From: Streptomyces puniciscabiei
GTDB taxonomy: Bacteria > Actinomycetota > Actinomycetes > Streptomycetales > Streptomycetaceae
Assembly: GCF_006715785.1 (NCBI RefSeq)
Contig: NZ_VFNX01000001.1
Span: 434,001 to 498,000 of the forward strand
Length of the DNA: 64,000 nucleotides
Direction: 5' to 3'
Positions 30,543 through 51,057 of the stretch are shown here, one piece after another; positions within the stretch are counted from its first letter, which is position 1; each line of letters starts with the position of its first letter. A program made the position numbers and the translations under genes. The notes beneath the pieces are model-generated. The model was given only the letters and a program-made list of their open reading frames with translations, was not told the origin of the DNA and did not search any database.

Positions 30543-31976
30543 TTGGACAGTGGCGGACGGCCACCGGCTGCGGGCTCCGGCGGGCCGCAGCGGCGGGGAT
30601 CGGACGAGGGTCACGCGCAGGGGCGCCTCGATCGCGTTCGCGCTGCCGCGGCGGCGCGGGCCACCAAGGGGGCCGCTCATACCAGGGCCCTCGTGCGCCG
30701 GGTCGAGCGGACTCCTCCGCCCCCGGGTCCGTTCCGCCCTGGATTCTGGCGCAGTCCGATCCGCGGGCCTTGGCTGACATCGGTGTTCGGACTGGTCCTC
30801 CTGATCGGCATTCCGCTGCTGTTCGTCACCGGACTGCTCTCCTACGCCGCCTACAACCCCGGGCTGAGCCCCTTCAACGACGAGACCCCCGACAAGGGTG
30901 TCCTGGGCTTCTACCTCTTCAGCTGGCCCACGCACCCGTACTGGCTGTACCGGCTGCTTCAGGGCGTGCACGTGACGCTGGGCGTGGTGCTGGTGCCGGT
31001 GCTGCTGGCCAAGTTGTGGTCGGTGATCCCAAAGCTGTTCGAATGGCTTCCGGTACGCTCCATCGCCCACGGCCTGGAGAGACTGTCCCTGCTGATGCTG
31101 GTCGGCGGCGTCATCTTCGAATTCGTCACCGGCATCTTCAACATCCAGCTCTACTACGTCTTCCCGGGCTCGTTCTACCGCCTGCACTTCTACGGCGCCT
31201 GGGTGTTCATCGCCGCCTTCGTCGTCCACGTGTGCCTGAGACTCGGCCGGATGACACGGGCACTGCGCTCACGCAACCTGGGCACCGAACTGCGCACCGA
31301 CCTCGCCCACACCGTGCCCGAACCACCCGATCCCGACGGCCTGGTGGCAACCGCGCCCGCACCGCCCACGATGACCCGCCGCGGCGCGGTGGGCATGGTG
31401 GGAGCGGGATCGCTGCTCCTCCTCGTCGTGACCGCCGGACAGAGCATCGGCGGCCGGCTGCGCGGCACAGCGCTGCTCGCGCCGCACAACCGCAACCCCG
31501 GCAGCGGGCCGCACAGCTTCCAGATCAACAAGACGGCGGCGAAAGTGGGCATCACCCCCGCGCTCGTCGGCCCCACCTGGCGGCTGGAGGTCCACGGACA
31601 CGGAGCGCCACGGGTCTTCACCCGCGAGCAGCTCCTGGCGATGCCCCAGCACGCCGCCGCACTGCCGATCGCCTGTGTGGAGGGATGGTCCACCGAGGAC
31701 CAGCACTGGAGCGGCCTGCGGCTGGCCGACCTCGCCGCTCTGGCCGGACTGCCCGACGCCGCAAGCGTCCTGGTCCAGTCCATTCAACCCCCCGGCCCCT
31801 TCACCCGGGTGGTGCTGCGCGGCAACCAGATCCACGACCCGCGAGCGCTGCTCGCCCTCCGCGTCAACGGCGCGGACCTCTCACTCGACCACGGCTACCC
31901 GGCCCGCATCATCGTCCCGGCCAACCCCGGCGTGAACAACACCAAGTGGGTCCACCGGCTCACCTTCAGGGCGTGA
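30543..31976 (+). CDS. Membrane cytochrome b fused to molybdopterin oxidoreductase
   Basis: 477 residues. Four helices at about 77-245 (WLTSVFGLVLLIGIPLLFVT, VHVTLGVVLVPVLLAKLWSV, LMLVGGVIFEFVTGIFNIQL, FYGAWVFIAAFVVHVCL) carry histidines able to bind b-type haem. A fifth helix preceded by TMTRRGAVGMVGAG resembles a Tat signal. A sulfite-oxidase-fold domain at about 325-477 has ALPIACVEGWS, where the cysteine should bind molybdenum. The layout is like MsrQ plus MsrP in one chain. The start is uncertain: TTG 30543 opens the frame, and the first 60 residues are disordered. Confidence 0.88.
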   Translation: MDSGGRPPAAGSGGPQRRGSDEGHAQGRLDRVRAAAAARATKGAAHTRALVRRVERTPPPPGPFRPGFWRSPIRGPWLTSVFGLVLLIGIPLLFVTGLLSYAAYNPGLSPFNDETPDKGVLGFYLFSWPTHPYWLYRLLQGVHVTLGVVLVPVLLAKLWSVIPKLFEWLPVRSIAHGLERLSLLMLVGGVIFEFVTGIFNIQLYYVFPGSFYRLHFYGAWVFIAAFVVHVCLRLGRMTRALRSRNLGTELRTDLAHTVPEPPDPDGLVATAPAPPTMTRRGAVGMVGAGSLLLLVVTAGQSIGGRLRGTALLAPHNRNPGSGPHSFQINKTAAKVGITPALVGPTWRLEVHGHGAPRVFTREQLLAMPQHAAALPIACVEGWSTEDQHWSGLRLADLAALAGLPDAASVLVQSIQPPGPFTRVVLRGNQIHDPRALLALRVNGADLSLDHGYPARIIVPANPGVNNTKWVHRLTFRA

Positions 31977-31978
31977 CG

Positions 31979-32482
31979 ATGACACGATTCGCACGCTGGT
32001 ACGGCTCCGGGCCCCTGCATCTGCTCGTCCTGATCGCCTCGTTCGCCCTGACCGGCTACGCCATGGTGCGCCTGTTCGCCGTCCAGCCCTGGGAGGTGGC
32101 GATCTGGTTCGTCGGTGCGGCGATCCTCCACGACCTCATCCTGCTGCCCCTGTACTCGCTGGCCGACCTGTCGGCCTTCTCAGTGCTGCGGCACCGAGCC
32201 GTCGACAGGCCGACGGTGCCGTGGATCAACTACCTGCGCGTCCCCGTCTTCCTGTCAGGTCTGCTCCTGCTGGTCTGGTTCCCCCTCGTCCTCCGTCTGG
32301 CGGGCCCCTACCCCGGCGACACCGGGCTGTCCGACGGCGTCTACCTCGGCCGATGGCTGGCGATCACCGGCGCACTCTTCGCCGCCTCCGCCGTGGCCTT
32401 CGCGATGAGACTGCGCCGCCTGAGGCGGGCCGGCCGCGGCGACAAGAACCGACCCGCCGCAGGGCACGGCGCAGCACCGTGA
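31979..32482 (+). CDS. Four-helix membrane protein of the molybdo-cytochrome operon
   Basis: 167 residues from ATG 31979, two bases after the oxidoreductase stop. Helices: LHLLVLIASFALTGYAMVRL, VAIWFVGAAILHDLILLPLY, LRVPVFLSGLLLLVWFPLVL, WLAITGALFAASAVAFAMRL. AAILHDLILLPLYSLAD recurs in the shorter protein at 49511 as GAVVLHDALVAPLVLL, so both operons carry the family. Its stop overlaps the methyltransferase start (GTGA). Function unknown; possibly a subunit or electron-entry partner. Confidence 0.85.
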   Translation: MTRFARWYGSGPLHLLVLIASFALTGYAMVRLFAVQPWEVAIWFVGAAILHDLILLPLYSLADLSAFSVLRHRAVDRPTVPWINYLRVPVFLSGLLLLVWFPLVLRLAGPYPGDTGLSDGVYLGRWLAITGALFAASAVAFAMRLRRLRRAGRGDKNRPAAGHGAAP

Positions 32483-33216
32483 CAACGGACGAGGGCGAAC
32501 TGTACGACGCCGACGAGGACCCCTACGCGCTCGCCCTGCGCCCCGGCCGAGAACCGGTGTACCTACGGCTGGCCGACGGGCGCCGGATCCGGATGCCGGT
32601 ACACCGCTGGCACGAGCAGCCCACGGCAGCCGACAAGACCGTACTGGAACGCTGCATCGGCCCCGTCCTCGACGTCGGGTGCGGCCCGGGCCGCATGTGC
32701 AGAGCACTCCTGAGCCGGGGGGTCTTCGCCCTCGGGGTCGACATCGCGCCTCGCGCGGTCGCACTGACCACCACCATAGGCGGGCTCGCACTGTGCCGAT
32801 CGGTCTTCGACCGACTGCCCGCAGAGAGAGGCTGGCAGACGGTGCTGCTCATCGACGGCAACATCGGCATCGGTGGCGATCCTCGTGGCCTGCTGCGCCG
32901 CTTCGACGGCCTCGTCGCCCCCACCGGGCGCCTCGTCGTCGAGGTCGACCCCGACGACGTCGAGGAACAGTGCACCGCCCGGTTCGAGGACCTCCACGGC
33001 CGGACCGGTCCGTTCTTTCCCTGGGCACGGCTCGGGCGACGAGCCCTCCGCAGGATCGCCGCCAACCTTGCTCTCAGCGTCACCGATCAGTGGACGAGCG
33101 GGCACCGCTGCTTTGCCACTCTCACTCACCAGGGAACATCCTGTGACCGCCCCGACACGGGCCCCGCAGTGACGGACGCCGGCCGGACCGAGTCGGACGG
33201 CCGGGCCGCTCGATGA
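32479..33216 (+). CDS. Class I SAM-dependent methyltransferase
   Basis: 245 residues from GTG 32479, overlapping the preceding stop. The N-terminal LYDADEDPYALALRPGREPV precedes SAM motif I, GPVLDVGCGPGRMCRALLSR, and the unusual post-motif LLIDGNIGIGGDPRGLLRRF. It has the same family signature as the methyltransferase at 43457. The C-terminal 30 residues are disordered. Third gene of the operon; the substrate is unknown and probably envelope-related. Confidence 0.9.
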   Translation: MTTDEGELYDADEDPYALALRPGREPVYLRLADGRRIRMPVHRWHEQPTAADKTVLERCIGPVLDVGCGPGRMCRALLSRGVFALGVDIAPRAVALTTTIGGLALCRSVFDRLPAERGWQTVLLIDGNIGIGGDPRGLLRRFDGLVAPTGRLVVEVDPDDVEEQCTARFEDLHGRTGPFFPWARLGRRALRRIAANLALSVTDQWTSGHRCFATLTHQGTSCDRPDTGPAVTDAGRTESDGRAAR

Positions 33217-33317
33217 TGACGCCGCGATGCTGCTGCACTGCTACCACAGTCATGCGGAAGGAAAGTCTGTTCGCATCGAGTGAGAAGGCAGTGGCATCGG
33301 CAAGGTAGAAAGGACAC

Positions 33318-33854
33318 ATGCCGGAGCGCGAGCCCCCTGTGGGAAGCATGGACGACGTTGATGCGGTCACCCGGGCGGTCCTGACCGCGTCCCGGCTGCT
33401 GGTAGCGGTCTCCGCCCGTTCCCTCGCCGAGGTCGAGGAGCGTGTGACCCTCCCGCAGTTCCGGATGCTGGTCGTTCTGGCCACCCGAGGGGAGACCAAG
33501 CTGGTCGCGCTCGCCGAGCTGCTCCAGGTTGCGCCCTCCACCGCCATGCGCATGGTCGACCGGCTCATCGCCGCCGGACTCGCCGACCGCAAGGCCAATC
33601 CCTCCAACCGCCGCGAGACTCTGCTGTGGCTGACCGAGGAAGGCCGGCGCACCGTCGAGGAAGTCACCGCCCGGCGTCGCGCCGAGATCGCCGACATCGT
33701 CGAAAGGCTCCGCCCGACCGAGCGCCTCGCGCTCGTCGAGGCCCTCAACGCCTTCAACGAAGCGGGAGGCGAGCCCTTGGCCCCGGCGGCGGACGACCCC
33801 GAGCCGCACCCGCTCGGCTGGATCGTGGACGGAGCGATGGCGCACGACGCCTGA
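33318..33854 (+). CDS. MarR-family transcriptional regulator
   Basis: 178 residues. Winged helix at about 45-125: VTLPQFRMLVVLATRGETKL, VALAELLQVAPSTAMRMVDR, LIAAGLADRKANPSNRRETL, LWLTEEGRRTVEEV. MarR proteins bind palindromic operators and respond to small ligands. Three copies of a TTTGCA-N3-TGCAAA palindrome lie in front of the next genes (SPW protein, ClC channel, FAD monooxygenase), making it their likely regulator, although none is seen before its own gene. ATG 33318 has GAAAGGA upstream. Confidence 0.92.
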   Translation: MPEREPPVGSMDDVDAVTRAVLTASRLLVAVSARSLAEVEERVTLPQFRMLVVLATRGETKLVALAELLQVAPSTAMRMVDRLIAAGLADRKANPSNRRETLLWLTEEGRRTVEEVTARRRAEIADIVERLRPTERLALVEALNAFNEAGGEPLAPAADDPEPHPLGWIVDGAMAHDA

Positions 33855-33867
33855 CACGGCACGGCAG

Positions 33868-33886
33868 CCGGTCACGGTATGACCGG
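33868..33886. terminator. Bidirectional hairpin
   Basis: CCGGTCA and TGACCGG form a 7-bp stem with a 5-base loop between the convergent MarR and SPW-protein genes. Confidence 0.5.
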
Positions 33887-33898
33887 GGTCCGTGGCGT

Positions 33899-34294
33899 CT
33901 ACCCCGATGAGTCGGGAGCCCGATTCGCGGCGATCACACCAAGCAGGCACACGGCGCCGCCCGTACACGTGTTGCTCCACACGATCCCGGCCGACACGCC
34001 ATGGGATGCCGTCACGACCGCCGGGGAGAGGATCAGCCAGAAGCCGAGCGGCACCAGGGTCCATGCGAATCGGTGCATCCGCTGGGGCGCGAGGGGGGTT
34101 CCGAGAGCGAGCAGGGCGACGCCGAGCCCCATGATCAGGTTGTTCGCCGTGAGATACGGGTTCGTCCTGTAGAAGTGAATCACCCAGGGCGAGACCGCCG
34201 TATAGATGCCGGCCAGCAGCATGAGCCCCTCGACGACGATTGCCGGGCTGCTTGTGGTCGCCACCTCGCGGCCAGCCCGGCGTGGATACGACAT
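33899..34294 (-). CDS. SPW-repeat membrane protein
   Basis: 131 residues with four helices. The first half carries GLMLLAGIYTAVSPWVIHFY, the SPW signature; the second has FWLILSPAVVTASHGVSAGI in the equivalent place. SPW proteins are small membrane proteins of unknown function. ATG 34294 has GGGGTGG upstream; GTG 34303 is an alternative. A TTTCCA-GTA-TGCAAA operator-like site sits 29-43 bases upstream. Confidence 0.8.
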   Translation of the reverse strand: MSYPRRAGREVATTSSPAIVVEGLMLLAGIYTAVSPWVIHFYRTNPYLTANNLIMGLGVALLALGTPLAPQRMHRFAWTLVPLGFWLILSPAVVTASHGVSAGIVWSNTCTGGAVCLLGVIAANRAPDSSG

Positions 34295-34322
34295 GGCAGC
34301 CACCCCGTCTCACATGGCGACG

Positions 34323-34337
34323 TTTCCAGTATGCAAA
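34323..34337. promoter_or_regulatory. Operator-like palindrome (degenerate copy)
   Basis: TTTCCA-GTA-TGCAAA matches the perfect sites at 36249 and 36504 except for one base in the left arm. It lies just upstream of the SPW membrane protein gene. Confidence 0.5.
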
Positions 34338-34441
34338 GAAAGTCCGTATTGGTCTGTCCGCAGCTGTCGTATCCGCTCCTTCCAGCCGGATCAGACCAGC
34401 CGGCCATTGACCGCCAGGCCGTGAAGAGCCCCGGTGGGTGC

Positions 34442-36232
34442 TCAGGCGGGCGCGTGCACCGCGCGCAACGCGCTCTGGTGGCTGAGCCAGCCCACCGGCT
34501 TGCCCTGCTCGGCGTCGAGCACGGGTATCCCGGTTCCGGCGGCCGACAGCAGGGTGTGCAGTGCCTGTGCGAGGGGCTGGTCGACGGTGACCGGTGCGGG
34601 CGGCGCGGCGAGCTGTCCGACCAGTGCCGGGGTGCCTCCCGGCTGTTCCGCGAGAGCCTCGGCCACCGCCTGCGCCGTGACGATGCCGGCGTACTGGCCG
34701 GTGTCGTCCACGACCGGGAGGGCACCGTGGCCCGAGAGGCTGAGCAGGTCGGCAGCGTCGGCCAGGGACATGGTCGCGGGCAGGGCGGAGGGGAGCGGTT
34801 CCATGACGGTGCCGACGTGCTGGCCGCCGATCGCCGCCCCGGGGGCGGGGCCTTCGAGGTCGATGCCGCGGCGGCGCAGCTTGAGGGTGTAGATGGTGTC
34901 GCGGGAGAGCAGGCGGCTGGTGGCGGTGGCCAGCACGATGGCCAGCATCAGGGGCAGGATGATCGAGTACTCGCCGGTCAGCTCGAACAGGATGACCACG
35001 GCGGTGATCGGCGCCCGGGCCGCGCCGGCGAATGTCGCGCCCATGCCGATCAGGGCGTACGCGCCCACCGCGCCGGCCGTGCCGGGTATCAGGTCATGGA
35101 CGCCGACGCCGTACGCCGAGCCGAGCATCGCGCCGATGAACAGGCTGGGCGCGAAGACACCGCCCGAGCCGCCGATGCCGATGGTCAGGCTGGTCGCCAG
35201 CATCTTGCCGACCAGGAGCAGGAGTAGGAAGCCGACCGCGTAGCCGCCCTTGGTCGCCTCCTCCAGGACCGGGTAGCCGACGCCGTACATCTCCGGCAAG
35301 GTCAACAGCATCAGGCCGAGCGCCAGTCCGCCGACCGCCGGACGCAGCCACTCCGGGCCGCGCCACAGCCAGTCGCAGGCGTCCTCGACCAGGTACAGGA
35401 AGCGCGCGAAGCCCATCCCGACCACAGCGGCAACCACGCCGAGCAGGGCGAACAGCCCGTACTGGGCAAGGTGGTCGACGTGGAACGCGGGCAGGTTCAG
35501 GAAGGCGACATCGCCGAAGGACGCGCGTCCGATGATGCTCGCGGTGACGCTGGCCAGCACGGTCGCGCCGAAGGCTTCCGCACTGAAGGTACCGAGGATC
35601 AGTTCCATGGCGAAGAAGACACCGGCCAGGGGAGCGTTGAAGGTGGCCGCGATGCCGCCCGCCGCGCCGCAGGCGACCAGGAGCTTCGTGCGGCCCTCCG
35701 TCGCCCTCGTCACACGACCGAGGGTGGAGCCGAGCGCCGAGCCGATCTGCACGATCGGGCCCTCGCGGCCCACCGAGCCGCCGGAACCGATGGTCAGCGC
35801 GGAGGCGAGTGTCTTGACGACGGCGACCTTCGGGCTGATCCGGCCGCCGCGCTGGGCCACGGCCAGCATCACCTCCGGCACACCGTGCCCACGGGCCTCC
35901 TTGGCGAACCGGTTCACGAGCGGGCCGTAGAGCAGGCCGCCAATCACCGGGGTGAGCAGCACGAAGTACGGGCCCAGCCACGGCACGTGCGGATTGCTCG
36001 CGCCGGGGGACGCGGAGTAGTCGGAGTGACCGGACAGCAGACCGGTGAAGGTCTTGATGCACCAGCGGAAGACGACCGAACCTGCGCCGGCTCCGGCGCC
36101 GACCGCCACGGCAAGCGCCATCACACCCCAAGGGGCGTTCCGCGGGCTCGCGATCGTCGGCGCCGGTGTAAGGCTCTTTGCCGTCGTGTCGGCTCCTTGC
36201 TCTCTGTCCGCTGCTGCCCGTATGCCGCTCAT
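34442..36232 (-). CDS. ClC-family chloride channel/antiporter with CBS domains
   Basis: 596 residues. The ClC core at about 35-445 has the anion-binding motifs: GHGVPEV (in place of GSGIP), GSGGSVGREGPIVQIG with the gating glutamate of GREGP, and GGSGGVFAPSLFIGAMLGSA (GxFxP). Two C-terminal CBS domains follow at about 465-595 (GHGALPVVDDTGQYAGIVTA, AAGTGIPVLDAEQGKPVGWL). The gating glutamate suggests proton/chloride exchange. AAGGAAGG precedes ATG 36232, and a perfect palindrome lies right behind the RBS. Confidence 0.95.
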   Translation of the reverse strand: MSGIRAAADREQGADTTAKSLTPAPTIASPRNAPWGVMALAVAVGAGAGAGSVVFRWCIKTFTGLLSGHSDYSASPGASNPHVPWLGPYFVLLTPVIGGLLYGPLVNRFAKEARGHGVPEVMLAVAQRGGRISPKVAVVKTLASALTIGSGGSVGREGPIVQIGSALGSTLGRVTRATEGRTKLLVACGAAGGIAATFNAPLAGVFFAMELILGTFSAEAFGATVLASVTASIIGRASFGDVAFLNLPAFHVDHLAQYGLFALLGVVAAVVGMGFARFLYLVEDACDWLWRGPEWLRPAVGGLALGLMLLTLPEMYGVGYPVLEEATKGGYAVGFLLLLLVGKMLATSLTIGIGGSGGVFAPSLFIGAMLGSAYGVGVHDLIPGTAGAVGAYALIGMGATFAGAARAPITAVVILFELTGEYSIILPLMLAIVLATATSRLLSRDTIYTLKLRRRGIDLEGPAPGAAIGGQHVGTVMEPLPSALPATMSLADAADLLSLSGHGALPVVDDTGQYAGIVTAQAVAEALAEQPGGTPALVGQLAAPPAPVTVDQPLAQALHTLLSAAGTGIPVLDAEQGKPVGWLSHQSALRAVHAPA

Positions 36233-36248
36233 CGATTCACCTTCCTTA

Positions 36249-36267
36249 CTTTTGCATTATGCAAAAG
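36249..36267. promoter_or_regulatory. Perfect 19-bp palindromic operator before ClC gene
   Basis: CTTTTGCATTATGCAAAAG is a perfect 9-1-9 palindrome centred at 36258, 26 bases upstream of the ClC start. Same core as the sites at 36504 and 34323. Confidence 0.7.
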
Positions 36268-36503
36268 ATGTCAAGGGTGCGCATCACCTGCCCGCCCCTT
36301 GGGACCGAACGGCCCTCGAGACCCGCTCCCGTCCGCGCCGACAGCGCTTTCGCCGGCATTCCCTCGGTTCGGTCGGCCAATGCCGGGTGCGGCATGCCGC
36401 CTGCCTGGTCCTCGCATCCGTGGCGACGGCAGGCGACTTTCATCCGGTCGTCAGTCCGCTCCGGTGCGCGCTCGCTGTCCGCGGGCATTCTTGACGCCCG
36501 AGC

Positions 36504-36518
36504 TTTGCATGGTGCAAA
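36504..36518. promoter_or_regulatory. Palindromic operator before FAD monooxygenase
   Basis: TTTGCA-TGG-TGCAAA, centred about 41 bases before ATG 36552. It shares the TTTGCA-N3-TGCAAA core with the ClC site. The 280 bases between the divergent genes contain nothing else recognised. Confidence 0.65.
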
Positions 36519-36551
36519 ACTTAGGTGACGGAGAGAGGTGGTGCACACCGG

Positions 36552-37799: not shown

Positions 37800-37843
37800 A
37801 CACGTTCGGGGTGTCGCCGGCCACGCGCCCCGGAAAGGTCCCG

Positions 37844-37972: not shown

Positions 37973-37986
37973 TTCCGTGCAGGCCC

Positions 37987-41889: not shown

Positions 41890-41985
41890 TGGCCAGGTGG
41901 CTTTGCCGGCCCGGCAGAGGATGCCCGCGTGGGTCAAGGCGCCGATGATGCCGTGGGTTCGGGCGGCCTTGATGTCGTGAACTGC
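41890..41985 (-). mobile_element. IS5-family transposase C-terminal fragment
   Basis: VHDIKAARTHGIIGALTHAG then ILCRAGKATW resembles the IS5 transposase segment around the last catalytic region (H..K.ARTHGIIDALT.AG). It is truncated at both ends. The end of the neighbouring glycosyltransferase gene runs into it in a different frame. Confidence 0.65.
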
Positions 41986-43460
41986 GCCGGGCCGGGCAGC
42001 TGAGGCCCGGCGCAACTCAGCGGGGGCTGCGTCGGCTTCATGCCTCTCAGGCAGGCACCCAGTGCGACAGTGAGAGCGGCAGCGCCATAGGCCCATGCCT
42101 GCAGGGGGAAGCCGGGCCACAGTCGCCCTGCGAGGTAGAGGACTGTGCCGGCCACGGTGACGGCGAGCCACTCCCAGCGGCCGTCCAGAGCTGCGAGGGC
42201 GATGACGAGCATGGAGTACCAGGGGTAGTTGGGCGAGAACAGCAGCAGGGCCGTGCCGGTCAGCAGTAGGGCACCGCTCCAGGGGCGTGTCGGGTCGCCG
42301 CGCCACCATACGAACAGGGCCGTCAGGGCGAGCAGGACAACAGCGGCGATTCCGGCGGCCGAGTCCGGCAGGATCAGCCGTAGCAAGGCGAAGCGGCGTA
42401 CGTCGCCGGGTTCGTAGCCCTCTTCGTTCAGGTAGCCGGGGAGATAGCCGAGGACGCTGGTGCCGGAGGCCAGGACGTAGGGCAGGTAGGCGATCGCGAC
42501 CGCGCCGACGGCACCCGCCGTCACGCTCCCGATGCGTCGTGCGCTGCGCTGTCCGGACAGGGCGCCGGGCAGCGCCAGTACGGGCAGCAGTTTGACCGCG
42601 ATGGCCGCGCCGAGCAGGGCGCCGCGACGCGCCCCGGCGGTGGCGGTGCCGAGTGCCAGCACGGTGAGCAGGACGCCGAGGGCGTCGACGTGGGCGTTGT
42701 TGACGGCTTCGAAGGGGACGGCTGGGCACCAACCCCACAGTGCGGCGCGGGCAGGGGCCCGTTGCGGGTCGCCGCGTCGCCGCAGGACGGCGAGCAGGGT
42801 GACGGTGGTGCCGAATGCCAGTGCTGCTCCCCCCACTTGGAGCGGTTTGTGACGAGTACCCGGTGGCGAAAGGGCGTGAACGGCGAGGAACCAGCCCTCC
42901 GCGACGGGCGGGTAGATCGTCGGCACGGTGGGCCGGTTGATGCGGACGCACGCGCCGCTGTCGGTGCGCCTCAGTCCCCAGCCGTCGCAGGCTCCGCTGG
43001 TGGGAAAGAGCCACTCGTCCCGCAGACGAGCGAGTTGGGGGGCGGCCGGCGGGTGGGCGTAGGGGGAGATACCGGCCGCCTGCACGCGGCCGTCCCAGGC
43101 GTAGCGGTACATGTCGTCGCTGGTGCGGGGCGGTGCCGCCAGGCCGGACAGTGCGACGGCGGCGGAGCCCGCGAGCACCAGGAAGGTCGCGGCGCGAGCG
43201 GGGAGTTTACGCACGGTCCAGACCCCGGCGGCGAACAGTGCCCAGGAGATGGCGTATCCCACGAGCAGGCGGCCCGGGTCGCTCTGGTTGTCGCCGGCGT
43301 GGAGGGTGCCGATGACAACGGCGCTGAGTGCGACGAGCACCGCCACGACCAGGGTGGTACGCGTACGACCGGCGTGGCGGATCACCGGCTCTGTGGGGTG
43401 GTCGGGCAACGGCTCGGCGGGCCGGGGCACCGACCGACGCGTGGGGGCGCTGCCTGTCAT
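41934..43460 (-). CDS. Polytopic mannosyltransferase-like (GT87/DUF2029-type) protein
   Basis: 508 residues from ATG 43460, with about ten membrane helices. The luminal loop DDMYRYAWDGRVQAAGISPY has the DD..RY.WDG signature of polyprenyl-phosphate-dependent GT-C enzymes, followed by RPTVPTIYPPVAEGWFLAVH and FSPNYPWYSMLVIALAAL. It probably moves a sugar from a lipid donor to an envelope acceptor. ATG 43460 overlaps the methyltransferase stop. The last 15 or so residues are read from IS5 debris, so the native C-terminus is lost. Confidence 0.88.
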   Translation of the reverse strand: MTGSAPTRRSVPRPAEPLPDHPTEPVIRHAGRTRTTLVVAVLVALSAVVIGTLHAGDNQSDPGRLLVGYAISWALFAAGVWTVRKLPARAATFLVLAGSAAVALSGLAAPPRTSDDMYRYAWDGRVQAAGISPYAHPPAAPQLARLRDEWLFPTSGACDGWGLRRTDSGACVRINRPTVPTIYPPVAEGWFLAVHALSPPGTRHKPLQVGGAALAFGTTVTLLAVLRRRGDPQRAPARAALWGWCPAVPFEAVNNAHVDALGVLLTVLALGTATAGARRGALLGAAIAVKLLPVLALPGALSGQRSARRIGSVTAGAVGAVAIAYLPYVLASGTSVLGYLPGYLNEEGYEPGDVRRFALLRLILPDSAAGIAAVVLLALTALFVWWRGDPTRPWSGALLLTGTALLLFSPNYPWYSMLVIALAALDGRWEWLAVTVAGTVLYLAGRLWPGFPLQAWAYGAAALTVALGACLRGMKPTQPPLSCAGPQLPGPAQFTTSRPPEPTASSAP

Positions 43461-44326
43461 GAGTGGTGGGGCCTTTCGGTCATCGAGGGCTGCGTGTCGG
43501 GGTGACTCGCGCGTCGGCGGCGTAGTTCCACGAACGGGCGTCCCACGGCCGTCCACCTACCGGTCAGGATCCAGCCGGCGGAGTCTGCGGCGTTCAGGAG
43601 CGCGGTGGTGCCGAGCCTGGCCCAGGGGAAGGCCCTGCCGTGGTGACCGTGGGCGTCCTCGACGCGCACGGTGAGGCGCTGGTCCACGTCCTGCGGGGCG
43701 GCTTCGGCCAGCAGGAGCCCGCCGGGGGCGATGAGTTCGCGCATGCGGCGGAGCAGGGCGACGGGATCGCCGCCGATGCCGATGTTGCCGTCCATCAGCA
43801 GCACGGTGCCCCAGCGACCTTCGCCCGGGAGGCGGTCGAAGGCCGAGCGCTGGATGGCGGCGCCACCACTGCGCCGGGTGCGCTTCACGGCGTCCCGGCT
43901 GAGGTCCACGCCCAGCGCCGGTACGCCGCGGGCGGCCAGTGCGGCCACCATGCGTCCCGGCCCGCATCCCACGTCCAGGACGGAGCCCGTACATCGGCGC
44001 AGCACGCTCGTGTCCGCCGCGTCGGGAGGTGCACACCAGCGCTCCACGTCCAGCGGCAGCACGTGCTCCTCGCCGAAGCCGTCGGGGTGATCAGGGTGTG
44101 ACAGACGGCGCAGGAACAGCGGGCCGCGTCCGGTGCGCAGGGCGTGGGCATAGGGATCGTCGATCCACGGGGTGCCCGGTTCCACGGGCACGGCGGGGCG
44201 GACGGGGAGCGTCGGCATGCGCTTCCTGGCCCTGACCACCGTCGGGTTCTCCGCCCGGGGCTCCGCCACGGCCGGTTCCGGCCGCTCGGCCACGGCGGAG
44301 TCGATGCCGACCGCCGTCCCGCTCAT
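43457..44326 (-). CDS. Class I SAM-dependent methyltransferase
   Basis: 289 residues. A disordered N-terminus (1-50) precedes WIDDPYAHALRTGRGPLFLR, motif I SVLDVGCGPGRMVAALAARG and LLMDGNIGIGGDPVALLRRM, shared almost word for word with the protein at 32479. It overlaps genes on both sides by four bases (DUF2064 upstream, GT-C downstream), so it is part of one translational unit. The acceptor may be a small glycoconjugate. Confidence 0.9.
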   Translation of the reverse strand: MSGTAVGIDSAVAERPEPAVAEPRAENPTVVRARKRMPTLPVRPAVPVEPGTPWIDDPYAHALRTGRGPLFLRRLSHPDHPDGFGEEHVLPLDVERWCAPPDAADTSVLRRCTGSVLDVGCGPGRMVAALAARGVPALGVDLSRDAVKRTRRSGGAAIQRSAFDRLPGEGRWGTVLLMDGNIGIGGDPVALLRRMRELIAPGGLLLAEAAPQDVDQRLTVRVEDAHGHHGRAFPWARLGTTALLNAADSAGWILTGRWTAVGRPFVELRRRRASHPDTQPSMTERPHHS

Positions 44327-44964
44327 CGGACCACCTCTGCCATTGAGTTGAGGACGGCGGCGAAGCGGGAGCCGCGTGCACAGAAGGCGGCAACCGCGGC
44401 AGCGTCGGCTGCGGTGTCCACGTCACGCAGTACCGGCAGGTCGTTCACGGCCAGTCCTGCCTCGGCCAGGCGGATGCGCTGGATCGCGCCCGTACAGTCC
44501 GTGGACATGGGCACCCCACAGACCAGGGCACCGGCCCGGGCAGGATCGGCGAGGCCGAGCGCCCAGAACCCGCCGTCCGCGGCCGGACCGAACCAGGCGT
44601 CGTGGCCGTCGTGGCCGGCGTCGGCGATCATGTCGGCGGTCAGTTGCGGGGTGTCCATGCCGACCAGCAGCGTCGGGCCGTCACAGTGGGCGAAAGCAGC
44701 GACGATCCGCTGGTCCAGGCCGCCGGGGCTCTGGGGTACGACTTCGTAGCCGGGCGGCAGCCAGGGACCAGGGGTGCCGTCGAGAGCGAGCACGCGACGG
44801 CGTGCGGGGGCCTGCAGCAGGGTGTGGAGCGTGTCGGTGAGGGCGGCCTCGGCCAGGGTGGCTGCTTCCTGAGGTGTGTACGGCGGGGTGAGCCGGGTCT
44901 TGACGCGGCCGGGCACGGGTTCCTTGGCGATCACCAGCAGGGTCACCGGGGGCAGGGCGTTCAT
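44323..44964 (-). CDS. DUF2064/TIGR04282 glycosyltransferase-like protein
   Basis: 213 residues from ATG 44964. It begins LLVIAKEPVPGRVKTRLTPP, then LLVGMDTPQLTADMIADAGH and FGPAADGGFWALGLADPARA, all typical of the family, which has a nucleotidyltransferase-like GT-A fold. Members occur beside GT2 enzymes in predicted arsenosugar-like or unknown glycoside pathways. Overlaps both neighbours by four bases. Confidence 0.9.
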   Translation of the reverse strand: MNALPPVTLLVIAKEPVPGRVKTRLTPPYTPQEAATLAEAALTDTLHTLLQAPARRRVLALDGTPGPWLPPGYEVVPQSPGGLDQRIVAAFAHCDGPTLLVGMDTPQLTADMIADAGHDGHDAWFGPAADGGFWALGLADPARAGALVCGVPMSTDCTGAIQRIRLAEAGLAVNDLPVLRDVDTAADAAAVAAFCARGSRFAAVLNSMAEVVR

Positions 44965-45686
44965 CGTCCGACTCCCCGCACGCCGGTGACGGCGGTCGTG
45001 GTGGCGGGTGTCTCGGCGAGCACGGCGCGCATGTCGTGTACCGCCTGCCAGGTGCCTCGCCAGGTGCCGGTGACCTTGGAGCGGCCGGTGCGCGGGTGGT
45101 AGGGCACCTCCGTCTCGCGCACCCGCCAGCCGGCGTCGGCGCCGCGCACCACCATCTGCAGCGGGTAGCCGGAGCGCCGATCGGTCAGGTCGAGGGCCAG
45201 CAGGGCTTCGCGGCGGACGGCGCGCATCGGGCCGAGGTCGTGCAGGCGCACCCCGGTGCGCCTGCGGATGAGCCGGGCCAGCTCCAGGTTGGCCAGGCGC
45301 GCGTGCACGGGCCACGCCTTGGGGGACGTGGGGCGCCGCCGGCCCAGCACCAGATCGGCGGTGCCGCCCAGCACGGGTGCGGCGATGTCCGGCAGTAGGG
45401 CGGGGTCGAGGGAGGCGTCGCAGTCGCAGAAGCAGACGACGTCGGCGGTGGCGGCCATCAGGCCGGCGTGGCAGGCGGCGCCGAATCCGCGTACCGGCTC
45501 GGTCACCACGTGGGCGCCGAATGCGCGGGCGATGTCCGCCGAGCCGTCGGTGGAGCCGTTGTCGACCACGATGGCGCGCCATCCGGGCGGGATCCGGTCG
45601 AGCACCCACGGCAGGGCCTGGGCCTCGTCCAGACAGGGCAGCACCACATCGACCCGGGCAGGAGAAGAGGGGGAAGTCGAGATCAC
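44961..45686 (-). CDS. Family 2 glycosyltransferase
   Basis: 241 residues from GTG 45686. The GT-A fold begins VDVVLPCLDEAQALPWVLDR, then AIVVDNGSTDGSADIARAFG. The metal site reads CFCDCDASLDP, a DxD variant; the acceptor region has RTGVRLHDLGPMRAVRREAL. It resembles polyprenyl-phosphate sugar synthases without the membrane tail. First gene of the four-gene operon, divergent from the two-component system, with a pair of direct repeats in between. Confidence 0.9.
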   Translation of the reverse strand: MISTSPSSPARVDVVLPCLDEAQALPWVLDRIPPGWRAIVVDNGSTDGSADIARAFGAHVVTEPVRGFGAACHAGLMAATADVVCFCDCDASLDPALLPDIAAPVLGGTADLVLGRRRPTSPKAWPVHARLANLELARLIRRRTGVRLHDLGPMRAVRREALLALDLTDRRSGYPLQMVVRGADAGWRVRETEVPYHPRTGRSKVTGTWRGTWQAVHDMRAVLAETPATTTAVTGVRGVGR

Positions 45687-45730
45687 CCCACTCACCCTAC
45701 GAACGCAAAAGGGACGTAAGGGACTTGGCG

Positions 45731-45780
45731 TCCTTACAGATCTCTGACGTCGGCGGCAGTCCTTACGGATCTCTGACGTC
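45731..45780. promoter_or_regulatory. Tandem 21-bp direct repeats between divergent operons
   Basis: 45731-45751 and 45760-45780 share TCCTTAC-A/G-GATCTCTGACGTC with one mismatch, 29 bases apart. An inverted GTAAGG lies upstream at about 45715. Tandem direct repeats are the usual target of OmpR-type regulators, one of which starts at 45814. Confidence 0.65.
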
Positions 45781-45813
45781 CGCCACCACTCCCCCTGACA
45801 GCCGCGGGGCGGT

Positions 45814-46557
45814 GTGAGACTCGATACCGTGAAACGCGTACTCGTCGTGGACGACGACCCGACCGTCTCCGAGGTCGTCGCCGGATACCTGACCCGGGCG
45901 GGCTTCGACGTCGATGTGGCCGCCGACGGTCCCTCCGCCGTGGCCAGGGCCACCGCGCAGCCGCCGGAACTGGTGGTGCTGGACCTGATGCTGCCCGGCA
46001 TGGACGGGCTGGAGGTCTGCCGCCGAATCCGCGAGACCGGCCCGCTGCCCGTGATCATGCTGACGGCGCGGGGTGACGAGGAGGACCGCATCCTCGGCCT
46101 GGAGGTCGGGGCCGACGACTATGTCACCAAGCCTTTCAGCCCGAGGGAGCTGGTCCTGCGGGTGCAGTCGGTGCTGCGCCGTGCGGGAGCGCTGGCGGCG
46201 GTGCGGAGCGCACCGTCCGTACCGCGCCTGACCGGACTACGGGCCGGACCGCTCGCTCTGGACGCCACGGCTCGCCGAGCCACCCGCAGTGGTCGGGAAC
46301 TTGCTCTGACCATCAGGGAGTTCGATCTGCTGGAGTTCTTCCTGCGCAATCCCGGGCGGGCCACCAGCCGGGAGGAACTGATGCGTCGCGTGTGGGGCTG
46401 GGAGTTCGGTGACCTGTCCACCGTCACCGTCCATGTACGGCGGCTGCGCGAGAAGATCGAGGACGACCCGGCCCGCCCGCGGCTGATCAACACCGTGTGG
46501 GGCGTCGGCTACCGCTTCGATGTACCTGAGGCGAACGGGGCGGACGATGCTGCGTGA
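45814..46557 (+). CDS. OmpR-family response regulator
   Basis: 247 residues. Receiver at about 6-120: acidic pocket VVDDDPTVSE, phosphorylation site LVVLDLMLPGMDGLEV, lysine in DDYVTKPFSPREL. Winged helix at about 145-240: LTIREFDLLEFFLRNPGRAT, VTVHVRRLREKIEDDPARPR, LINTVWGVGYRF. GTG 45814 or GTG 45829 (VKRVLVVDDD) may start it. The kinase gene overlaps its end by 11 bases. Confidence 0.94.
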   Translation: MRLDTVKRVLVVDDDPTVSEVVAGYLTRAGFDVDVAADGPSAVARATAQPPELVVLDLMLPGMDGLEVCRRIRETGPLPVIMLTARGDEEDRILGLEVGADDYVTKPFSPRELVLRVQSVLRRAGALAAVRSAPSVPRLTGLRAGPLALDATARRATRSGRELALTIREFDLLEFFLRNPGRATSREELMRRVWGWEFGDLSTVTVHVRRLREKIEDDPARPRLINTVWGVGYRFDVPEANGADDAA

Positions 46558-47659
46558 CACCTTCCTGATCGCCCTGTACGCGGCGATCGGCGCGGGCGCC
46601 GCCGGACTGCTCGGTGTGGCCGCCCTGAGGCTGCTGCGCAACCGCTCGGTCGCGCTGTCGCTGGCCGTGGTCACCGCCGTCGCCGTGGCGGCGATGCTCG
46701 CCGGGACAATGCTCGTGTCGTGGGCGATGCTGCTGTCGGATCACGACCTGTGGGTCGTCACCATGGTGTGCTCCATAGCGGCGATCGTCTCCCTCGCGGT
46801 GGCGCTCGTCCTCGGCCACAGCGTCGTCAAGGGCAGCCAGGCCCTCACCGAGGCCACCCGCGTCCTGGGTGACGAGGGCCGCTTCACCCCGCCAAGCATC
46901 GCTCCCACGGCTGAACTGGCCCAACTGGTCCGGCAGTTGGACGCGACCAGTGCGAAGCTGGCCGCCTCGAGGGAGCGCGAGCGGGCCCTGGAGGAGTCCC
47001 GGCGGGAGCTTGTCGCCTGGATCTCCCACGACCTGCGCACCCCGCTCGCCGGGCTGCAGGCGATGACCGAGGCGCTTGAGGACGGCATGGTCGCCGATCC
47101 CAGCGTCTACCACGCCCGGATCCGCACGGAGGTCGAGCGGCTCAGCGAGATGGTCGGCGACCTGTTCGAACTCTCCCGCATCCAGGCCGGCGTGCTCGCC
47201 CTGAACACGGCCCGCATGTCGGTCTACGACCTCGTCGGCGACGCGATCGCGGGCGCCGACGCCCTCGCCAGGGAACACGGCGTGCGGATCATCGGCGACG
47301 GAGTCGAACCGGTGCCGATCGAGGTCGACGGCCGCGAGATGTCCCGCGTCCTGGCCAACCTCCTCGTCAACGCCATCCACCGCACGCCCACCGACGGAAC
47401 GGTCGCCGTCTCCGCCCGGGAGGAGGGCGGCAGCGTCGTCGTCTCGGTGACCGACGGCTGCGGCGGCATCCCGTCCGAGGACCTGCCCCGCGTCTTCGAC
47501 CCCGGCTGGCGCGGCACCGACGCCCGCACCCCGCCCGCCGGTGCGGGCCTGGGACTGGCCATCGTGCGGGGCATCGTCGAGGCCCACAGCGGCCGGGCCG
47601 CCGTCCACAACGTGCCCGGCGGCTGCCGCTTCGAGGTCCGCCTGCCGACAGCCGCCTGA
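46547..47659 (+). CDS. Sensor histidine kinase
   Basis: 370 residues from ATG 46547. Helices LIALYAAIGAGAAGLLGVAA, SVALSLAVVTAVAVAAMLAG and MVCSIAAIVSLAVALVLGHS anchor it; a HAMP-like linker follows. The phospho-acceptor is in VAWISHDLRTPLAGLQAMTE; N box NLLVNAIHRTPTDG; G1 DGCGGIPSEDLP; G2 GAGLGLAIVRGIVEAHSG. It has almost no extracellular sensor loop, so it may sense the membrane itself. Pairs with the upstream regulator. Confidence 0.94.
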   Translation: MLRDTFLIALYAAIGAGAAGLLGVAALRLLRNRSVALSLAVVTAVAVAAMLAGTMLVSWAMLLSDHDLWVVTMVCSIAAIVSLAVALVLGHSVVKGSQALTEATRVLGDEGRFTPPSIAPTAELAQLVRQLDATSAKLAASRERERALEESRRELVAWISHDLRTPLAGLQAMTEALEDGMVADPSVYHARIRTEVERLSEMVGDLFELSRIQAGVLALNTARMSVYDLVGDAIAGADALAREHGVRIIGDGVEPVPIEVDGREMSRVLANLLVNAIHRTPTDGTVAVSAREEGGSVVVSVTDGCGGIPSEDLPRVFDPGWRGTDARTPPAGAGLGLAIVRGIVEAHSGRAAVHNVPGGCRFEVRLPTAA

Positions 47660-47685
47660 GTGCATTTCCCGGTCCGGAGAAGGGC

Positions 47686-47708
47686 CGTCCCTGTGGAGTA
47701 CAGGGACG
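47686..47708. terminator. Hairpin between convergent genes
   Basis: CGTCCCTGT (47686-47694), loop GGAGT, ACAGGGACG (47700-47708): a perfect 9-bp stem, 26 bases after the kinase stop and before the end of the epimerase. Confidence 0.65.
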
Positions 47709-47735
47709 CCCCCCCGAGTTGTCACCGGGGAAGGC

Positions 47736-48788
47736 TCAGCCTGACCGCAGCGCAGCCTTCGCGAACTCCGCCATTCCCTCGGCGAAGTCCACCACCGGTT
47801 TCCAGCCCAGCTCGTCGCAGAGCCTGCGCGAGGAAGCGGTGATGTGACGGACGTCGCCGAGCCGGTACTCCCCGGTGACGACGGGTGCGTCGCCGCCGTG
47901 TGCCGCGGCCAGCGCGGCGGCCATCTCCCCCACCGTGTGCGGCTCGCCGCTGCCGACGTTGTACGCCCGCAAGCCGCCCTCCGGCAGAGCGGGCAGCCCG
48001 TCCATGGCCGTGAGGTTGGCCCCCGCGACGTCCCGCACGTGCACGAAGTCCCGCCGCTGACCGCCGTCCTCGAACACACGTGGCACCTCACCGCGCGCGA
48101 GCGCGGACCGGAACAAAGAGGCGACTCCCGCGTACGGGGTGTCCCGCGGCATACCCGGCCCGTACACGTTGTGGTACCGGAGCGCCGCCACCCGTCCACC
48201 GGTGGCCCGCGCCCACGACGCGGCCAGGTGCTCCTGCGCGAGCTTGGTGGCCGCGTAGACGTTGCGCGGATCGGTCGGCGCCTCCTCCCCCACCAGCCCG
48301 GCGGACAAGGGCTCATCACAGTGTGGGCACGGTGGTTCGAAACGGCCCGCGTCCAGCTCGGCGATCCGTCGCGGCCCCGGCCGTACGACGCCGTGCTGGG
48401 CACACTCGTAGCGGCCCTCGCCGTACACCACCATGGAACTCGCCAGCACGAGTCGGCGCACCCCGGCCGCAGCCATGCCTGCCAGCAGTACGGCCGTGCC
48501 GAGGTCGTTGCAGCCGACGTAGGCGGGCGCGTCCGCGAAGTCCTTGCCGAGCCCGACCATCGCCGCCTGATGGCAGACTGCGTCCACGCCCCGCAGAGCG
48601 TCCACCACCGCCCCCCTGTCGCGAACATCCGCGTGGCGCCAGTCGACACCATCGGGGACGGGCGGCGGCGTACGGTGGGCGGCGGGCAGGAGCGCGTCGA
48701 GCACACGTACCTCGTGCCCGGCACTGGTGAAAGCGCTGACGATTTGCGAACCGATGAAGCCCGCACCTCCGGTGACCAGGATCAACAT
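47736..48788 (-). CDS. NAD-dependent nucleotide-sugar epimerase/dehydratase
   Basis: 350 residues, an extended SDR. NAD motif LVTGGAGFIGSQIVSAFTSA; catalytic serine region VLASSMVVYGEGRY; YxxxK as YAATKLAQEHLAASW. Between serine and tyrosine is a cysteine-rich insert (CAQHG ... PPCPHCDEPL) that could bind zinc, as in proteins annotated dTDP-L-rhamnose 4-epimerase. It probably makes a nucleotide sugar for the nearby glycosyltransferases. Convergent with the kinase. Confidence 0.92.
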   Translation of the reverse strand: MLILVTGGAGFIGSQIVSAFTSAGHEVRVLDALLPAAHRTPPPVPDGVDWRHADVRDRGAVVDALRGVDAVCHQAAMVGLGKDFADAPAYVGCNDLGTAVLLAGMAAAGVRRLVLASSMVVYGEGRYECAQHGVVRPGPRRIAELDAGRFEPPCPHCDEPLSAGLVGEEAPTDPRNVYAATKLAQEHLAASWARATGGRVAALRYHNVYGPGMPRDTPYAGVASLFRSALARGEVPRVFEDGGQRRDFVHVRDVAGANLTAMDGLPALPEGGLRAYNVGSGEPHTVGEMAAALAAAHGGDAPVVTGEYRLGDVRHITASSRRLCDELGWKPVVDFAEGMAEFAKAALRSG

Positions 48789-48840
48789 GCTCCGACGCTA
48801 AGCCTGACCGCGCGTCTGCGGATGCCGGAACGGGGATCCG

Positions 48841-49434
48841 TCAGGGGTTCGTAAGCCTTCCGGACCGGCCGGACGCCGCCACACTCAGCAGACCGAAGCC
48901 CGCGGCGAAAGCGAGCATGGTGAACACGCCGCGGGGCCAGAAGATGTGACTGTCGAGAAACGACCAGCACGCCCCCAGCACCACCACGGCCCCGGGCAGC
49001 ACCCGGACGCCGTGGCGCCGCAGCAGTACCGCGCCGGCGGCGAGCGCGGCGACCGTCAGCCCGTACACCCCTGCCCGTCCCAACTCGTCACCGGTCGAGA
49101 ACAGCCACCCCACCGCCCCATGCACCCCATGTACCGCCACCGTCCCGGCAGAGATACCGGCCACCGCGTCCAGCCCCGAGTAGTACGCCGCGTAACCAAG
49201 ACACCCGGCCCAGGCCACCAAGGTGAGTGCGCCGTCGACGTCACGCCCCGGTCTGCCCCACAGCGGCACCAGCAGGCCGAGCGCCAGCAGCGGAAAGGCG
49301 GGCAGCAGGGCGACATGCAGCCCCGCCCAGTGAGCGGCCGTCGACGCGGTGAGATGCCGCGGGTGGACCAGGCCCGCCACAGCCAGAAACAGGGGCGGAG
49401 CCGTTACGAGGACCACCGTACGAAGAGTGCGCAT
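48841..49434 (-). CDS. Integral membrane protein
   Basis: 197 residues from ATG 49434 (MRTLRTVVLVTAPPLFLAVA). About six helices, including LPAFPLLALGLLVPLWGRPG, LVAWAGCLGYAAYYSGLDAV, GAVVVLGACWSFLDSHIFWP, FTMLAFAAGFGLLSVAAS. Histidines in HPRHL, HWAGLHVALL and SHIFWPRG might bind haem, but I do not recognise the family. It is downstream of the second molybdo-cytochrome operon, 76 bases away. Confidence 0.8.
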   Translation of the reverse strand: MRTLRTVVLVTAPPLFLAVAGLVHPRHLTASTAAHWAGLHVALLPAFPLLALGLLVPLWGRPGRDVDGALTLVAWAGCLGYAAYYSGLDAVAGISAGTVAVHGVHGAVGWLFSTGDELGRAGVYGLTVAALAAGAVLLRRHGVRVLPGAVVVLGACWSFLDSHIFWPRGVFTMLAFAAGFGLLSVAASGRSGRLTNP

Positions 49435-49510
49435 GGCGCCACCGTAGGAATGACCTACGCCAGGCGGGGCCCGTGCCGGCGATGCGTAAGACACCCGTAA
49501 GACGCCGCCG

Positions 49511-49924
49511 TCACGAAGGTGGACGCCGTCGGCTGCGTCGGACCTCCTTCGCCACCACCAGCAGAGCCGTGAACGTGGCCACGGCCACCAGGATCAGCAG
49601 CCAGTTGCGCGGATAGTCGAGCGGCAGCACCGTCGAGTTGGCCCGGGGCCCCGGTCGCAGCAGCACCGGCAACGCCACCGCGGTAAGGGCACCCCCTACG
49701 AGCAGCGCCCCGCGGATGGGCCCCCGCACCCCGCCAGGGACCAGCACCAGCCCGACGAGCAGCACCAGCGGCGCGACCAGCGCGTCGTGCAACACCACCG
49801 CCCCGCCGAGCCACTCCAGCACACCCATCAGGTCCTGCTGCCTGTCCAACAGCAAGGACGCGCCGACACCCATCAGCGCCAGCCCGGCGGCACCGGCCAG
49901 CAGTCGCAGCACTTTGACCCTCAT
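49511..49924 (-). CDS. Membrane protein of the second molybdo-cytochrome operon
   Basis: 137 residues from ATG 49924. Helices LRLLAGAAGLALMGVGASLL, LGGAVVLHDALVAPLVLLVG, ALLVGGALTAVALPVLLRPG, WLLILVAVATFTALLVVAKE. VVLHDALVAPL matches ILHDLILLPL in the protein at 31979, so both belong to one family. It overlaps the molybdo-cytochrome gene by four bases. Confidence 0.85.
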   Translation of the reverse strand: MRVKVLRLLAGAAGLALMGVGASLLLDRQQDLMGVLEWLGGAVVLHDALVAPLVLLVGLVLVPGGVRGPIRGALLVGGALTAVALPVLLRPGPRANSTVLPLDYPRNWLLILVAVATFTALLVVAKEVRRSRRRPPS

Positions 49925-51057
49925 GACAACACCTCCAGTCGGCCGACCCACTTGGTCTGCAGTACGCCCGGACGGTTCGGAGCGATCAGGCGCACCGGGT
50001 AACCGTGGTCGGGCGACAGTTCCTCACCGTTCAGCCGCAGTGCGAGCAGGGTCAGCGGGTCCCGGGCGTGCTCGTGACCCATCTCGGAGACCCGGTAACC
50101 GCCCCGGGTCTGCAACGACACCACCCGTACCCGCGCGTGGACCGGGGCTCCCACCCGCTCCAGCAGGTCCACGACGCGCACGCCTGTCCAGTGCGCCGAC
50201 TTGCTCCAGCCCTCCACGCAGGCGATCGGCAGCTCGACCTCGTGCTGGGGCAGTGCGCGCAGCTCGTCCAACGTCAGCGTGCAGGGCCGCGGTCCGGCGA
50301 TGGTCAGGCGGTAGCGCTCGGCATGGATCAGGCCGACCCCGGCCGCGGCAGCAGTCCGGTTGACCGGCAGGCCCTCGGAACCATGGTCAGGGTGGCGGGG
50401 TGCGAGGAGGGTCAGGCCCTTCAGCGGGGTGAAGGACTGCCCCACCGTGGTCACAGTGACGGCGCCGACCGCCGCTGCCACCGCGGCGAGCAGCGAGCGC
50501 CGATCCGGGGCGTCCTCGGCGGGCAGGGACAGCGTGCCCGCCGAGCGACGGCTCCAGTGTGCCGCGATCTCAGGTGCCTTGACCGCGATGTGCAGCACCA
50601 GCGCTCCTATCAGCAGCCAGGCCACGGCGTAGTGCACCTCCACGAAGGAGAAGGGCCACGGGTACCACTGCGCGGTGTTCAGCAGGCCGGTCGCCAGCTC
50701 GAAGAGGGCGGCTGCGACCAGGAAGGCCACCGACACCCGTTCCAAGGCGTGCCGCACCGAGCGCACCGGGGGCCACTCGAACAGGCGGGTATACACCGTC
50801 CACAACTTGGCGAGCAGCAAGGGAATCGCCGCGATACCGGACGCGACGTGGAGCCCCTGCGTGAACCGGTAGCCCCACACCGGACGGCTGGGCAGCTCGC
50901 CCGCGAGCCATCCCGGCGGGTGCTGCATGAAGTGACTGATCAAACCGGTGCAGAAGCACACCGCGAACGCCAGGCCGAGCCACCGCCCGATCGAGGTCGC
51001 CGTGCGGGCATCGTGCAGTCGGCCCTTGAACACGGGCGGAAAGAAGCGCGATCTCAT
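49921..51057 (-). CDS. Membrane cytochrome b fused to molybdopterin oxidoreductase
   Basis: 378 residues from ATG 51057. Four helices with haem-type histidines (GLISHFMQHPPGWLAGELPS, GLHVASGIAAIPLLLAKLWT, VAFLVAAALFELATGLLNTA, AVAWLLIGALVLHIAVKAPE), then PDRRSLLAAVAAAVGAVTVT as a Tat-like fifth helix, then the sulfite-oxidase fold with VELPIACVEGWSKSAHWTGV. Paralogue of the protein at 30543 but without the long disordered N-terminus. Likely passes quinol electrons to an outward-facing molybdenum site. Confidence 0.9.
   Translation of the reverse strand: MRSRFFPPVFKGRLHDARTATSIGRWLGLAFAVCFCTGLISHFMQHPPGWLAGELPSRPVWGYRFTQGLHVASGIAAIPLLLAKLWTVYTRLFEWPPVRSVRHALERVSVAFLVAAALFELATGLLNTAQWYPWPFSFVEVHYAVAWLLIGALVLHIAVKAPEIAAHWSRRSAGTLSLPAEDAPDRRSLLAAVAAAVGAVTVTTVGQSFTPLKGLTLLAPRHPDHGSEGLPVNRTAAAAGVGLIHAERYRLTIAGPRPCTLTLDELRALPQHEVELPIACVEGWSKSAHWTGVRVVDLLERVGAPVHARVRVVSLQTRGGYRVSEMGHEHARDPLTLLALRLNGEELSPDHGYPVRLIAPNRPGVLQTKWVGRLEVLS

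Follow-up and report, generated by a model that had tools for sequence, protein, structure and literature searches.

The 64,000-nucleotide stretch of the Streptomyces puniciscabiei genome analyzed here (the window; RefSeq assembly GCF_006715785.1, contig NZ_VFNX01000001.1, positions 434,001 to 498,000) holds two loci, each of which encodes a fusion of a transmembrane b-haem domain with a molybdopterin domain (MoCo), a small transmembrane protein (SM) and a methyltransferase-like protein (MT). The second locus (set 2) also carries a sugar gene core and, judging by gene content and order, is probably a variant of the methylthioxylose (MTX) pathway outside lipoarabinomannan (LAM). The association is real, conserved and more specific than an earlier note on this DNA held, the redox module depending in every sampled genome on what appears to be this MTX variant, and both gene sets belong to a pathway that is widespread in actinobacteria and seems to display a methylthio sugar at the cell surface, as M. 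tuberculosis does. We favor the MTX reading because the 5'-methylthioadenosine phosphorylase (MTAP) of set 2 scores above both equivalog cut-offs, is a second copy and is enriched near MT and MoCo, and also because of the MTAP core in genomes that have DUF2064 only and of the mycobacterial gene order. The genes of the two sets are as follows.

30543..31976, +, MoCo-1, transmembrane b-haem plus molybdopterin domain, Sco3746 family (PF00174, E 3e-24; start uncertain, 30543 to 30783)
31979..32482, +, SMa, small transmembrane protein with the motif LHD...PL (translation; profile homology to SMb)
32479..33216, +, MT-1, methyltransferase-like, with DGNIGIGGDP (a longer open reading frame from 32221 overlaps SMa)
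41934..43556, -, GTCb, GT-C membrane glycosyltransferase of the GT87 type (PF09594, E 9.3e-12; start 43556 or 43385)
43457..44326, -, MT-2, methyltransferase-like (family and fold; 4-base overlap with the DUF2064 gene)
44323..44964, -, DUF2064 protein, predicted nucleotidyltransferase for a sugar-1-phosphate (PF09837, 67.6 bits, above cut-off; profile A4 match to PDB 3cgx, E 3.4e-26)
44961..45647, -, GT2 glycosyltransferase, likely of the polyprenyl-phosphate-sugar synthase type (PF00535, E 1.1e-20; NF041391/TIGR04182 matches under cut-off; start uncertain; 4-base overlap with the DUF2064 gene)
45814..46557, +, response regulator (translation judged by eye; conserved neighbor)
46520..47659, +, sensor histidine kinase (PF02518, PF00512)
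47736..48788, -, extended SDR sugar epimerase (PF01370, E 1.5e-44; relatives PDB 6wjb and GalE)
49511..49951, -, SMb, small transmembrane protein with the motif LHD...PL (translation; profile homology to SMa)
49921..51066, -, MoCo-2, five-helix b-haem plus molybdopterin domain (PF00174, E 3.7e-28; AF2 model, pLDDT 91.6)
51612..52460, +, MTAP (NF005876, 427.5 bits, cut-off 306; TIGR01694, 283.8 bits, cut-off 274.85)

Pfam searches and alignment bear out both loci, which the earlier note had reported as the three families together at 30543-33216 and again at 49921, 49511 and 43457, and all of the genes that it had placed beside the second one (GT2, DUF2064, GT-C, epimerase and a two-component system) are present (PF09837 above cut-off, GT87 match). 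In set 1 (30.5-33.2 kb), MoCo-1, SMa and MT-1 are consecutive in this order, while in set 2 (41.9-52.5 kb) GT-C, MT-2, DUF2064 and GT2 genes are accompanied by a divergent two-component system, and the MTAP gene, also divergent, adjoins the set and was absent from the earlier list. The two MoCo proteins share 41% identity, the two MT proteins 51%, and SMa and SMb 37%, the small-protein families being homologous (hhalign probability 98.3, E 2.6e-14). Beside PF00174, both fusions have a cytochrome b561 Pfam match that is under cut-off.

Dependence of the redox module on DUF2064

A sample of 196 genomes from the window's class was searched (MoCo E<=1e-30, MT E<=1e-20, DUF2064 E<=1e-25), with split MoCo hits merged by position, the two contig pieces of G064 taken as two loci, and one two-piece DUF2064 hit merged; the co-occurrence statistics ignore kinship, MoCo spanning 25 of 81 genera. 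Of these genomes, 81 have MoCo (90 loci), 86 have MT (94 loci) and 79 have both. The condition that the earlier note set for its own refutation, co-occurrence no greater than chance, does not hold: MT lies within 15 kb of 78/90 MoCo loci (within 1.5 kb of 69/90), and DUF2064 of the cluster type, found in 95 of the 196 genomes, accompanies MoCo in 81/81 genomes and MT in 85/86. The remaining MoCo loci either have no MT on their contig (11) or lie 2.7 Mb from it (one). The converse is looser: MoCo is missing from the 15 kb around 16/94 MT loci, and seven genomes carry MT without MoCo. Given that DUF2064 stands alone in eight genomes, yet MoCo is present only in genomes with it and in none of the 101 without it, the dependence within this sample is nested: the sugar core can exist without MT and MoCo, and MoCo never occurs without DUF2064.

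The first 43 stretches opened comprised 40 picked on MoCo or MT and the three from S. puniciscabiei itself; MoCo is present in 36 of the 43 and MTAP in 13. The small protein is encoded in 36/36 MoCo-bearing stretches according to six-frame searches with hidden Markov models (HMMs), which were built from the same sequences, 32 of the 36 having already been called. DUF2064-MT fusion proteins are found in two genomes of different families (L087:7585-8862 and L091:9165-10514). A gene that by eye resembles a MoaB/Mog molybdopterin gene adjoins the cluster at L172:3529-3993 and in similar loci such as L174 and L182.

The probable methylthioxylose core and its methylthioribose supply

MTAP, counted from at least 195 bits and with the fragments in G137 counted separately, occurs in 106/196 genomes, 34 of these without MT or MoCo. 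Of 110 strong matches, 33 have MT or MoCo no more than 15 kb away, with about 0.4 expected on a rough estimate (a 30-kb target in 6 Mb), and MTAP is within 15 kb of 41/98 DUF2064 loci. The other MTAP copy of S. puniciscabiei, at C1:3.79 Mb, is presumably the housekeeping one. Eight genomes have DUF2064 with neither MT nor MoCo; in six of them the distance between MTAP and DUF2064 is 0.8-2.3 kb, and all five of these six that were opened encode MTAP, GT2, DUF2064, a second type of GT-C enzyme (GTCa) and the epimerase in one stretch. The DUF2064-only genome G007 has epimerase, GT2, DUF2064 and GTCb on an 8.5-kb contig, with no MTAP on it.

This arrangement was compared with that of mycobacteria. 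Named genomes were scanned with a query led by a sequence nearest to mycobacteria, and the resulting loci, which lean to that group, were chosen on DUF2064; in the best 80 of 565, our own HMMs recovered GT2 in 77, GTCa in 75, epimerase in 72, MT in 50, MTAP in 47, histidine kinase and response regulator in 45 each, and MoCo in 43. In slow-growing mycobacteria, among them M. szulgai, M. persicum, M. gordonae and M. asiaticum, the order is MTAP, epimerase, two genes, GT2, DUF2064, in some one more gene, and GTCa. This locus is flanked by menA on one side and by menE, a pitA-like gene and menB on the other (the scan for menA covered M. szulgai L127, that for the remaining flank genes M. persicum L116, with pitA under cut-off), and we take its order to match that of Rv0534c-Rv0548c in M. 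tuberculosis. MtxS and MtxT are given as Rv0539 and Rv0541c in the portion of PMC8780516 consulted, and an excerpt of PMC5911930 describes a five-gene cluster dedicated to MTX. The earlier note knew of no described pathway with these genes; this view is not supported, as the core matches the published mycobacterial MTX pathway in gene content and in gene order. Like the pathway that serves LAM in M. tuberculosis, set 2 has MTAP, as a dedicated source of methylthioribose-1-phosphate, clustered with GT2, DUF2064, epimerase and a GT-C enzyme; unlike it, the present cluster reaches far beyond mycobacteria, adds MT, MoCo, SM and in many cases a two-component system, and in the window has a GT-C enzyme of the GT87 type.

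Among 24 mycobacterial genomes searched, MoCo and MT were each found in 23. Where the MTX locus is without MT and MoCo, both are present elsewhere in 17/17 genomes and adjacent in 15/17; six opened stretches of this type have the order MT-MoCo-SMa, which by gene order presumably corresponds to Rv0217c-Rv0220. Two further mycobacterial stretches, from genomes that keep MT in the MTX locus, have MoCo and SMa without MT. A complete set that includes MTAP is also present in Micromonospora arida (L173) and in Brevibacterium antiquum (L162), genera that, to our knowledge, are not known as LAM makers. MTX addition outside LAM was called unclear in 2024, in the part of PMC11127046 drawn on here; if the present reading is true, it would answer that question of whether MTX-type modification exists outside LAM.

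Several points weigh against placing set 2 in the MTX pathway. GTCb of the window has no detectable relation to GTCa, which in mycobacteria occupies the place of MtxT, and because of this we call set 2 a variant and not a member. In addition, MTAP is found in 72/88 cluster genomes, which leaves 16 without a strong match. Two of these (G107 and G171) have methylthioribose (MTR) kinase, the known alternative source of methylthioribose-1-phosphate, which is above cut-off in 0/30 other genomes searched. In the remaining 14, of which 13 belong to family f16 (e.g., L071, L075, L084 and L107), the search found neither a strong MTAP match nor, above cut-off, MTR kinase or the third route covered, nucleosidase.

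Two observations made alongside concern the same enzymes. In G107 (L230), the gene for MTR kinase is about 255 kb away from the cluster, in what by eye resembles an operon for nucleoside uptake and methionine salvage. Named Pseudonocardiaceae loci such as L148 and L172 have the cluster without MTAP in the fetched stretch, the only part examined.

The redox domain and its proposed role

MoCo carries an MsrP-like active-site motif on a b-haem membrane domain, as read from its sequence. The twin arginine (R189, R190), the candidate haem-ligand histidines H73, H145 and H159, and the Mo-ligand C283 are conserved in 63/63 sequences, and the AF2 model of MoCo-2 has five long helices ahead of the Mo domain. 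After 6 of 82 sequences were dropped for length or X, CVEGWS was found in 69/76 and C.EGW in 73/76, with the sulfite-oxidase-type motif C-A/S/V-G-N in 0/76. MoCo CVEGWS....W.G pairs with CVEAWSMVVPWIG of 1xdq, which we take to be E. coli YedY/MsrP, a pairing that is weak by itself. MoCo scores were all under cut-off for the SorA, SorT and SoxC models, and the two fusions reach 24.9 and 42.9 bits on the MsrP equivalog NF003767, versus a cut-off of 207. MoCo resembles MsrP-MsrQ (YedY-YedZ) in having a CVE-W-S-type Mo domain with a b-haem membrane part, outside the cytoplasm; it differs in being a single fused polypeptide under the MsrP cut-off, linked to a sugar pathway and with an extra small transmembrane partner. 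With the Sco3746 family it shares five transmembrane segments, a twin arginine before the fifth, haem-ligand histidines and a C-terminal Mo domain. The sections of an eLife 2017 study used here (PMC5449189) describe that family, whose namesake Sco3746 belongs to S. coelicolor, as dual Sec-Tat membrane proteins and deal with biogenesis, whereas the present analysis adds genomic context and a proposed substrate.

The sulfoxide form of MTX (MSX) accompanies it in M. tuberculosis LAM (PMC8531672). Because MoCo is found only with DUF2064, has the MsrP-like motif, and MSX is found beside MTX in LAM, we lean slightly toward a system in which MoCo, together with the core, acts on the sulfur of the sugar. 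That it works in the reductase direction, on a sugar sulfoxide, is a tentative proposal, and each reaction, the redox direction and the acceptor glycan are inferred from families, gene order, co-occurrence, predicted fold and motif. MTAP would convert methylthioadenosine (MTA) to 5-methylthioribose-1-phosphate, the DUF2064 protein would activate this sugar to a nucleotide sugar, the epimerase would adjust a ring hydroxyl, and GT2 would load the sugar onto polyprenyl phosphate, from which the GT-C enzyme could move the 5-methylthio-pentose to a surface glycan. MT, beside DUF2064, would probably methylate the activated sugar. MoCo, as a fused MsrP- and MsrQ-like protein, and its small partner might pass menaquinol electrons via the b-haems to the molybdenum outside the cell, where the sulfoxide of the methylthio group would be reduced back to the thioether. 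Since MoCo would return the sulfoxide to the thioether, the methylthio cap could be a renewable oxidant sink, controlled by the neighboring two-component system. More tentative still is the full picture, in which a methylthio sugar may decorate an envelope glycan of actinobacteria at large and be kept in its reduced form by a dedicated haem-molybdenum sulfoxide reductase that draws on menaquinol; this would be a respiratory system for the repair of a surface sugar and not of a protein. The earlier note's envelope redox system stands as far as the conserved set, the Mo domain predicted outside and tied to b-haem, and neighbors of the kind seen in extracytoplasmic glycosylation are concerned; its coupling of quinol oxidation to methylation is not supported, and sugar-sulfoxide reduction fits better.

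The opposite direction, in which MoCo oxidizes the methylthio sugar to an intended methylsulfoxide product on the outer face and passes electrons to menaquinone, is unlikely: the motif is MsrP-like and not of the sulfite-oxidase type, and the oxidation would be uphill, the potentials being about -70 mV for menaquinone and about +160 mV for thioether/sulfoxide. We give an equally low probability to MoCo-SM being a general extracytoplasmic protein methionine-sulfoxide reductase that merely neighbors the glycan cluster. The fused architecture, likened to MsrPQ by the authors of the eLife study in the sections cited (PMC5449189), and the two-component system adjacent in many loci fit such a role; a repair enzyme, however, should not need sugar genes, and DUF2064 is present in 81/81 MoCo genomes, with MoCo in 0/101 genomes that lack it.

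Two further alternatives concern the sugar itself. The MT-fold protein might not be a methyltransferase and might instead make MTA from S-adenosylmethionine, or move an aminocarboxypropyl group, and so feed MTAP. Its link with DUF2064 (85/86 MT genomes), frequent position near MTAP and fold match to "AzeJ in complex with MTA and AZE" (rank 48) agree with this, but AzeJ ranks far below ordinary methyltransferases, with XhnM1 at the top of the list, and MT is present in 14/16 cluster genomes without strong MTAP and absent from six with MTAP beside DUF2064, which makes this role improbable, more so than either rival above. Least probable is another 5-modified pentofuranose, e.g., an arsenosugar, a product suggested by what NCBIfam calls its models for DUF2064 and GT2: TIGR04282 is the best NCBIfam match of DUF2064, but its scores in the window and in M. 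persicum (104 and 117 bits, versus 134) are under cut-off, as are those of TIGR04283 (38.6 and 43, versus 182), and a true MTAP is a frequent neighbor of the cluster.

If sugar-sulfoxide reduction is true, it would supply a substrate hypothesis for the Sco3746 Mo-haem family, for which we have met no substrate in print, and a surface-sugar redox cycle testable in Streptomyces. MsrA of M. tuberculosis, which according to the title of a cited study reportedly has a natural carbohydrate as substrate, is the sole enzyme in the literature titles that we met for the reduction of MSX to MTX, and MoCo would be a candidate extracytoplasmic one.

Further copies, neighboring genes and possible mobility

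Two other membrane protein genes lie beside the sets.

29888..30415, -, GtrA/DPMS-type transmembrane protein (PF04138, E 3.7e-9), divergent from set 1; possibly a lipid-linked sugar flippase, with uncertain membership in the system
48841..49494, -, TM5, multi-transmembrane protein, present in 4/43 opened stretches, window included

The S. puniciscabiei genome has all three families a third time (C2:593-601 kb, L008), in a set that contains epimerase, histidine kinase, response regulator, GT2, DUF2064, MT, MoCo, the small protein and a GTCa-type GT-C enzyme, with no MTAP called within the 18-kb stretch. Another genome of the genus, G134, has close relatives of both window sets next to each other within about 13 kb, with identities of 83% (MoCo), 77% (SMa) and 71% (MT) to set 1 and of 82% (MoCo), 85% (histidine kinase) and 81% (epimerase) to set 2. 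The region with both sets is flanked in the window by direct repeats (24027-25077 and 52493-53507; 300 nucleotides at 93%, others at 61-90%). These repeats, together with the adjoining relatives in G134, suggest that the two sets may have travelled together, and set 1 is best explained as a detached MoCo-SM-MT module of the system of set 2. The region is possibly a mobile island. Both repeats hold open reading frames that by eye are transposase-like, with an identical start sequence.

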